A model generated the notes under the pieces. The model was given only the letters and a program-made list of their open reading frames with translations, was not told the origin of the DNA and made no database searches. A DNA stretch of 32,842 bases from Candidatus Sumerlaeota bacterium (GTDB lineage: Bacteria; Sumerlaeota; Sumerlaeia; SLMS01; JAHLLQ01): assembly GCA_021772755.1 (NCBI GenBank), contig JAJFLJ010000270.1, forward strand, positions 1 to 32,842. Direction: 5' to 3'. The translations under genes and the position numbers were made by a program. Below are positions 3,332 through 32,164 of this stretch, one piece after another. Position 1 is the first letter of the stretch; every line of letters begins with the position of its first letter.

Positions 3332-7642
<4,311 letters not shown>

Positions 7643-7708: not shown

Positions 7709-12100
<4,392 letters not shown>

Positions 12101-27402: not shown

Positions 27403-30036
<2,634 letters not shown>

Positions 30037-30039
30037 ACG

Positions 30040-30080
30040 CCGAAAAGGACCGAAACCCTTGGGATTCCGGTCCTTTTCGG
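30040..30080. terminator. Terminator after clpB
   Basis: CCGAAAAGGACCG (30040-30052) pairs with CGGTCCTTTTCGG (30068-30080), with partial inner pairing of ACCC and GGGAT. The GGACCG/CGGTCC stem is flanked by AAAA and TTTT, giving a bidirectional-looking intrinsic terminator 3 nt past the clpB stop. Confidence 0.8.
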
Positions 30081-30162
30081 TGCAAGTGGTCGGTCGAGAC
30101 TCTGCGGCAAGGCGCTTTGTCTTGACTCCGGGAGAGACTTGAGCCAGATTCAGGCCAGAAAG

Positions 30163-30184
30163 TGTGCCCGTATTTTGCTATAAG
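30163..30184 (+). promoter_or_regulatory. rpoN promoter with extended -10 (and sigma-54-like overlap)
   Basis: TTTTGCTATAAG contains an extended -10 (TG-C-TATAAG, 30176-30184) about 73 nt upstream of the rpoN ATG, without a good -35. The same bases can be read as GTGCCCG-tatt-TTGCT, resembling the sigma-54 -24/-12 site (TGGCACG-N4-TTGCW) but lacking the invariant GG. The sigma-70 reading is preferred. Confidence 0.5.
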
Positions 30185-30256
30185 GGCTTGTCAAGCCGAA
30201 AACACTCGTCGTTCGCCACAGAACCGGATCACCGGTCGGACCAAAAGGCAGGATTC

Positions 30257-32164
30257 ATGGCGATCTCGCTCCACCAGCAAATGCGTCAGACGCAGAAGCT
30301 GATCATGACGCCGCAGATGCAGCAGTCCATCCAGCTGCTTCAGCTCAACAGCATGGAGCTGGAGCAGATGATCTCCCAGGAGATGATGGAGAACCCCTTC
30401 CTGGAGCTCTCGGACGACGAGGAGAACCTGCAATCCAGCAACGAGGAGCGCGACCAGGCCGACGCCGGAGCCGATGATTCCCCGGACGACTCGGGCCTCT
30501 CCGAGCAGGCCAAAGCGGAGTCCCCGACCGCCAACGACAGTGTGTTGCCGGACGAGCGGGAGGACACCCGCCAGAAGGGCGAGGAGACCGGCGACGCGAC
30601 CCCCGACGAAACCGGCAAGGACGCCGCCGAGGACTTCGAGAAATTCGAGAAGAACGACGTCGACTGGGACAGCGAGTACGGCGATTCCGACACCTCCGCC
30701 TACCGCGCCACCCGCGAGGATTCCGAAGAAAGCGACTTCACCACCTACACCGCCCTCAACGAGAGCCTCTACGACAGTCTGATGCGCCAGGTGCGCCTCT
30801 CGGTCCTGGCGGGCGACGAGATCGAAATCGCCGAGTTCATCGTCGGGAATCTGAACGAGGACGGCTTCCTGGACTGTTCGCCGGAAAACCAGGCGATGAT
30901 CATGCTCTACCCCCCCGAGCTGTTCACGACGAAGCCCACCACCCAGACCTCCGAACGGCTGCGGGGAATGCTCAAGAAGCTGCGGGGCAGCGAAGCCGCC
31001 GTGTACGCGGTGGAGCTCAAGCACCGGCAGCTCGTCGCGATGGTCGTCGGCGCGCTGCTGAAGATCACGCCCGACGAGGCGATGACGATGTCCAGACGCG
31101 AGCAGGCGCTGGCGCTGGTCGCCCGAAAGCTGAAGAAGCCTGCGGAGGAGGTCGCGGAGGCGAGACCCGAGGACCTGGTCCTCGAGACCGTCGCGTGGCG
31201 CATGAAGAGCGATGCGCAGACGGTGTTCGACGTGCTCGAGGTGGTCCACGACTTCGAGCCAACGGGCGTCGCGGCCCGCAACCTGGGCGAGTGCCTCCGC
31301 CTTCAGGCCGAAGAGCGCGGCATCCGCGACCGCGTGCTCTACGAGATTCTGGAGAACCATCTGCCGAACCTCCAGCAGAAGCGGTTCCGCGAGATCGCCC
31401 AGGCGCTCGACGTTCCCGAGAGCCGCGTCCAGGACGCGTTCCACACGATCGCGCGTCTCGACCCGCGGCCGGGGCGCTCGACGACGAAGGACTCCCCCCG
31501 CTACATCAAGCCCGACGTCTTCGTGAAGAAGATGGACGGCCGGTACATGTACTTCCTGAGCGAGGGCGACGCCGGACGGCTGCGCATCGCGTCGAACTAC
31601 CGCCGCATGGCGAGCCGCAACGCGCGCGAGGCCGCGCAGAACGGCAACGGAAGCAACGCGTACGAGACGGGACAGGCGCAGTACGCCAACGAGAAGTACA
31701 AGAACGCGGTCTGGCTCATCAAGAACATCGAAAAGCGCAAGTCCACGGTCCTTCGCGTGACGGAAGCCATCATGGAATACCAGATGGAGTTCCTGGAGAA
31801 GGGCGTCGAGCACCTGCGCCCCCTGACGCTGCGCAACATCGCCGAGGTCGTCGGCATGCACGAATCGACGATCGCCCGCGTCACGACGAAGAAGTACGTC
31901 GAGACGCCGCGGGGCATCTTCGAACTGAAGTACTTCTTCAGCTCAGGCCTCGAGACCGACAGCGGCAACGACGCGTCGTCGCGCTCCATCAAGGAGATCA
32001 TCACGCAGATGATCGAGCTGGAGAACCCGCGCCGCCCCCTCAGCGACCAGAAAATCGCCGACATGCTGAAGGACCGCGGCATCCAGATCGCCCGCCGCAC
32101 CGTCGCCAAGTACCGCGAACAGCTGAAGATCCTTCCCGCGAAACTGCGCAAGGAAGTGAGCTGA
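30257..32164 (+). CDS. rpoN: RNA polymerase sigma-54 factor, enlarged
   Basis: Sigma-54 directs core polymerase to -24/-12 promoters and needs an ATPase enhancer-binding protein. The track starts at GTG 30164; ATG 30257 gives the canonical start MAISLHQQMRQTQKLIMTPQMQQSIQLLQLNSMELEQMI (region I, 1-50) and is preceded by an AAAAGGCAGGA site. Region II (about 52-165) is a very long acidic linker. Core-binding region III starts at LYDSLMRQVRLSVLAGDEIEIAEFIVGNLNEDGFLD (171-206), but about 110 residues (207-320) are inserted before VFDVLEVVHDFEPTGVAARNLGECLRLQ. The HTH (TLRNIAEVVGMHESTIARVTTKKYVETPRG, 524-553) and the RpoN box ARRTVAKYRE (612-621) are intact. At 635 residues it is well above the usual ~480. 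Confidence 0.96.
   Translation: MAISLHQQMRQTQKLIMTPQMQQSIQLLQLNSMELEQMISQEMMENPFLELSDDEENLQSSNEERDQADAGADDSPDDSGLSEQAKAESPTANDSVLPDEREDTRQKGEETGDATPDETGKDAAEDFEKFEKNDVDWDSEYGDSDTSAYRATREDSEESDFTTYTALNESLYDSLMRQVRLSVLAGDEIEIAEFIVGNLNEDGFLDCSPENQAMIMLYPPELFTTKPTTQTSERLRGMLKKLRGSEAAVYAVELKHRQLVAMVVGALLKITPDEAMTMSRREQALALVARKLKKPAEEVAEARPEDLVLETVAWRMKSDAQTVFDVLEVVHDFEPTGVAARNLGECLRLQAEERGIRDRVLYEILENHLPNLQQKRFREIAQALDVPESRVQDAFHTIARLDPRPGRSTTKDSPRYIKPDVFVKKMDGRYMYFLSEGDAGRLRIASNYRRMASRNAREAAQNGNGSNAYETGQAQYANEKYKNAVWLIKNIEKRKSTVLRVTEAIMEYQMEFLEKGVEHLRPLTLRNIAEVVGMHESTIARVTTKKYVETPRGIFELKYFFSSGLETDSGNDASSRSIKEIITQMIELENPRRPLSDQKIADMLKDRGIQIARRTVAKYREQLKILPAKLRKEVS

Follow-up and report, generated by a model that had tools for sequence, protein, structure and literature searches.

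Lineage-specific insertions are well documented in the core subunits of RNA polymerase. An example is i11 of the beta subunit, with a length of 54-69 residues (PMC2939025). In published structures of sigma-54 (RpoN), the core-binding domain (CBD) lies on the beta' side, at the RNA exit, where it touches alpha-CTD, the beta flap and the beta' zinc finger without contacting DNA; activators contact region I, and dissociation of the CBD has been proposed to accompany promoter escape (PMC7057263, PMC10786286). A limited literature search, covering few subscription journals, returned no report of a lineage-specific insertion in sigma-54.

Here we describe an insert in the sigma-54 CBD encoded by a Candidatus Sumerlaeota genome (312 contigs, 81% complete), within a stretch of 32,842 nucleotides that was analysed as a whole and is further called the window. 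We regard it as a new insertion of the lineage-specific kind within a known protein; it is fixed in one clade and absent in the sister clades. Like the RNA polymerase core insertions (beta i4, i9 and i11, beta' i6), it is a module restricted to one clade and set between regions of a transcription protein that other lineages share; unlike these, it sits in a sigma factor and is a predicted row of helical hairpins that matched no known domain by sequence.

The rpoN gene and its divided core-binding domain

Every feature that can be tested on the sequence identifies the window RpoN as a sigma-54, full-length and otherwise orthodox. Its TIGR02395 match exceeds the family cut-off and PDB sigma-54 chains match it with E-values down to 1e-79. 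The Q/L-rich N-terminal activator-interacting domain is present (PF00309, E 2.1e-17), the DNA-binding domain is matched by PF04552 (E 6.2e-62) with the motif ARRTVAKYREQ in the translation, and the CBD is recognized in two stretches that flank the insert (PF04963, E 1e-46). Canonical sigma-54 (E. coli structures 5NWT, 6GH5 and 8RE4) has all three domains, the RpoN box and the element order in common with the window protein, which differs by a 100-residue helical insert between the E. coli-equivalent CBD positions 157 and 161 (Table 1). As region I is intact and the genome contains GAFTGA activators (about 14 strong PF00158 matches to the bEBP AAA+ domain and at least 7 sites with the exact GAFTGA codon motif, all on contigs with strong PF00158 matches), activator coupling looks conserved. 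The clpB gene immediately precedes rpoN on the same strand (window 27403-32164), a neighbourhood that is conserved in G001 (same genus) and G003 and not in G002.

Table 1. Features of the rpoN gene and its insert (window positions; residues are those of RpoN)
Feature	Position	Strand	Description
rpoN (sigma-54)	30257..32164	+	635 aa, start ATG (MAISLHQQ...); Pfam PF00309, PF04963, PF04552, TIGR02395
rpoN domains			AID residues 7-51; split CBD ~161-448; DBD 475-632 including RpoN box ARRTVAKYREQ
Order-specific insert	30875..31174	+	residues ~207-306 (100 aa), between E. coli sigma-54 residues ~157 and 161
Insert N-terminal part	30941..31009	+	predicted helices H229-243 and H245-251 (LRGMLKKLRG...); AlphaFold2 and alignment
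Repeat unit 1	31022..31093	+	residues 256-279; predicted hairpin H256-268 / H272-277; AlphaFold2 and self-comparison
Repeat unit 2	31094..31165	+	residues 280-303; predicted hairpin H280-292 / H296-301; AlphaFold2; best self-match, offset 24
Insert end and native CBD element	31166..31249	+	predicted hairpin H304-315 / H320-331

The boundaries of the insert were drawn from an alignment of 41 RpoN sequences, the split Pfam CBD match and an alignment to the E. coli chain. The Pfam CBD profile matches window positions 30740-30904 with its columns 3-57 and positions 31181-31600 with its columns 50-185, two pieces that are apart in sequence yet contiguous in the profile, with the break after LNEDGFLD and the insert in between; the original prediction of an extra segment within the sigma-54 core-binding region was thus borne out. 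In the best PDB alignment, residue 208 of the query pairs with residue 157 of E. coli sigma-54 and residue 308 with residue 161, which places the insertion in the short loop that leads from the helix with NLNEDGFL at its end to the next CBD helix. The motifs G-[FY]-L and F-[DE]-P are 130 residues apart in the window's family f1 and 133-134 in the sister family f2, compared to 30-31 in nearly all insert-free Sumerlaeota, and the insert therefore counts 100 residues in f1 and 103-104 in f2 instead of the roughly 110 first estimated. Its proposed start at residue 207 (nucleotide 30875) agrees with the alignment, while the proposed end at residue 320 (nucleotide 31216) was about 14 residues too far, since LETVAWRMKSDAQ pairs in the alignment with LEEIAxxLxVxxxx, the native CBD helix of the relatives; residues 307-320 form this native helix and fall outside the insert.

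A frameshift or misassembly, named beforehand as one of the outcomes that would overturn the prediction, is ruled out by the presence of the insert in 12/12 genome assemblies of the order, the rpoN reading frame that runs continuously through it, its matching GC3 (0.91 versus 0.89-0.94 elsewhere in the gene) and purifying selection in close pairs (see below). Nothing speaks for an artefact of any kind, be it frameshift, misassembly or wrong boundary, apart from the shift of the C-terminal boundary by about 14 residues; this reading is already refuted and has a negligible probability.

Distribution and conservation of the insert

The insert goes back to a single gain in the ancestor of one Sumerlaeia order and has since become fixed. 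All 12 genomes of this order (families f1 and f2) carry it, with a length of 100 residues in 5/5 f1 sequences and of 103-104 in 7/7 f2 sequences, and the RpoN alignment that had been proposed to check its lineage specificity revealed that the proteins of the remaining Sumerlaeota families are without it; in the relative G037, assessed by the CBD profile instead, the match is unsplit. In a maximum-likelihood tree calculated without the insert columns, a branch with 100/100 support separates the 12 carriers from the other sequences. A profile of the insert, run against 386 genomes, detected a single copy per genome in all 12 members of the order.

The insert is under purifying selection and nearly invariant in length. 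In close pairs for which dS could be estimated, its dN/dS is about 0.1 (L012/L013), 0.2 (L011/L045) and 0.4 (L005/L006), values above those of the CBD core and DBD; region II exceeds the insert in L005/L006 and is about equal to it in L012/L013. In the pair formed by the window sequence and its nearest relative, pS has reached saturation and pN in the insert is 0.10. Leu28 and Arg29 of the insert are invariant in 12/12 sequences, and together with N4, Q5, Y11, D66, M71 and A82 they make up its conserved core positions. In more distant pairs the insert evolves faster, with 44-59% identity versus 72-81% in the rest of the CBD. Its net charge varies from -3 to +4 within the order, so that no specific binding surface is evident and nucleic-acid binding by charge was rejected.

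A survey of CBD splitting with the PF04963 profile in 156 genomes, from which the rows L126 and L129 (wrong-frame ORFs) were excluded when comparing inserted sequences, showed that the CBD match is also split at profile positions ~50-58 in G091, G118 and G077, all outside the phylum, by unrelated sequence. Unrelated insertions at this loop were observed in L113, L114, L115 and L123 (G091, G118, G077 and G082, outside the phylum). Within the Sumerlaeota, the same loop of family f4 (L042, L043) independently acquired ~60 residues of acidic low-complexity sequence, and family f7 has ~18 extra residues of unrelated sequence at the same point. The insertions of f4, G091, G118 and G077 share with that of the window their position after NL(N/D)EDGYL and differ from it in being mostly polar or acidic, unrelated in sequence and shorter, with the exception of that in G077, which is about as long. 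From these sequence comparisons, unrelated insertions appear at the CBD loop in at least three other phyla, as is to be expected of a surface position, and the loop has thus received insertions several times. What sets the insert of the order apart among them is that it is long, ordered-looking and fixed.

This record provides the main rival to a dedicated role in transcription, namely a tolerated, well-folded and functionally mild expansion, in which a loop that accepts insertions acquired a stable fold that was then inherited near-neutrally. The unrelated, often polar or acidic insertions in f4, G091, G118, G077 and G082 point in this direction, as do the faster evolution of the insert relative to the rest of the CBD and its unconserved charge; against these stand the absence of any loss in 12 genomes of two families, the length fixed per family, the purifying selection and the conserved core positions. 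On balance we regard such a near-neutral expansion as a real possibility with less than even chances.

Predicted fold and source of the insert

AlphaFold2 was run on the full protein with an input of six sequences, only two of them with the insert. Within the insert, helices are predicted at residues 229-243, 245-251, 256-268, 272-277, 280-292 and 296-301, followed by helices 304-315 and 320-331 at the native CBD element, with a block-mean pLDDT of 74-89 over residues 220-330; the earlier expectation of a helical, ordered segment is consistent with this model. The insert modelled in isolation gives nearly identical helices with a mean pLDDT of 54. The helix starts at 256, 280 and 304 are spaced 24 residues apart, and the element at the end of the insert, which corresponds to LEEIAxxLxVxxxxVExVLxxIQ in the relatives, is in register with the two repeat units. 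Independently of the model, comparing the insert profile with itself brought out offsets 24 and 48 as the top two matches. The p value was 0.0035 when columns were shuffled freely and 0.004 when hydrophobic class was preserved, and 0/3000 of the class-preserving shuffles reached the sum of the two. In the predicted fold, helix hairpins thus follow one another every 24 residues and are stacked in a row onto the native CBD helix, and the repeat units themselves likely grew by hairpin duplication. As profile-profile comparison of the insert with the native CBD of insert-free relatives gave no significant relation (p 0.11 ungapped; HHalign probability 0.6%), it is unproven that the insert arose by duplicating the native element.

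Profile searches in Pfam, NCBIfam and PDB assigned the insert to no family by sequence and returned chance matches only, in line with the earlier remark that no standard sigma-54 domain has this content. A designed PPR protein in the PDB (4.4e-6) was rejected, its score being the sum over eight copies of a 3-bit match. No credible phage or plasmid relative and no paralogue elsewhere in the window genome were found, and a fold search with the low-confidence model of the isolated insert gave no match at E <= 0.001. The best non-sigma fold matches obtained were weak ones to designed alpha/alpha toroid repeats. An intein, which would have Hint domain motifs and a sufficient size, was dismissed given the length of just 100 residues and the lack of a Pfam family for the insert. 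The HABAS-type insertion, a four-stranded open beta-sheet (PMC11515920), was discarded as well, the window insert being predicted all-helical by AlphaFold2.

That the insert is a domain captured from a different protein, such as an HTH module (sigma-70 region 4-like or other), could be suggested by the HTH-like look of the hairpins and by the one marginal match of the insert profile outside the order among the 386 genomes, to an ECF sigma factor of a distant genome (E 2.7e-4 per genome). However, TIGR02937 matches the RpoN of an insert-free relative too and does not match the inserts alone, HHalign to sigma region 4 yields a probability of 5%, the NCBIfam scan of the inserts is without sigma-70, and no Pfam, PDB, phage or plasmid relative was found. 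An origin from sigma-70 region 4 was therefore rejected, and capture in general is very improbable.

Proposed role at the RNA exit

We put the chances at about even that this is a working sigma-54 in which the insert serves as a helical contact module for core and RNA exit, tuning retention and promoter escape. In this model, the CBD grew once, when an alpha-helical module of 100 residues was added to the surface loop that follows the NLNEDGYL helix. As the CBD lies over the RNA exit, held by the beta flap, the beta' zinc finger and alpha-CTD, the module would widen its footprint over the exit channel. Added contacts to the core or RNA exit might then tune how tightly and for how long sigma-54 stays on RNA polymerase, with possible consequences for holoenzyme competition and for release at promoter escape, while promoter recognition and activator coupling would be unchanged. 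The low confidence of the fold in isolation, the variable net charge of the insert and the unchanged alpha-CTD (see below) weigh against this model, as does the lack of a significant profile relation to the native CBD for its duplication part. With the CBD at the RNA exit and activators on region I, the role is most likely on the core/RNA-exit side; of the two effects originally suggested, altered core binding is plausible from the position of the insert and an altered activator contact is not supported.

Other parts of the transcription machinery of the order were compared as well. The RpoB protein has an order-specific insertion of 64 residues at the position of E. coli beta i11 (residues 1154-1217, window 6791-6982), something like which was seen in just G022 (family f4) among the other Sumerlaeota checked, and RpoC has an order-specific insertion of ~39 residues (residues ~569-607, window 9413-9529), absent in 15/15 other Sumerlaeota RpoC examined. 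ClpB, used as a control, gave one continuous match without insertion, so insertions are not general in the order and a pervasive tendency to acquire them was rejected. In RpoA (L161-L189), alpha-CTD, one likely partner of the CBD, is unchanged in the order, and its co-change with the insert was rejected; the linker before it is less acidic and its helix starts with IQxxLDKS instead of xEEKLDKS.

Helical hairpin repeats are typical protein-protein scaffolds. The insert might accordingly be a docking platform at the RNA exit for an order-specific partner (a regulator, an anti-sigma-like protein or an RNA-processing factor), a reading consistent with the weak fold matches to designed alpha/alpha toroid repeats and with the acquisition of RpoB and RpoC insertions by the same order; considering that there is no candidate partner and that the conserved residues look mainly like core packing, we consider it unlikely. 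Also doubtful, and to be held quite loosely, is a dedicated RNA-exit module that co-evolved with the beta i11-like RpoB and the RpoC insertions, which would give longer retention at escape or recruit an RNA-exit factor of the order's own.

The insert adds a conserved, inherited helical extension, with a role that is putative, to a well-studied transcription factor in one order of the little-known phylum Sumerlaeota. The loop after LNEDGYL is marked as a tolerant insertion site across phyla, which is useful for tagging sigma-54. Because the CBD must vacate the RNA exit for promoter escape, this natural and fixed enlargement allows one to ask what sets the release of sigma-54.
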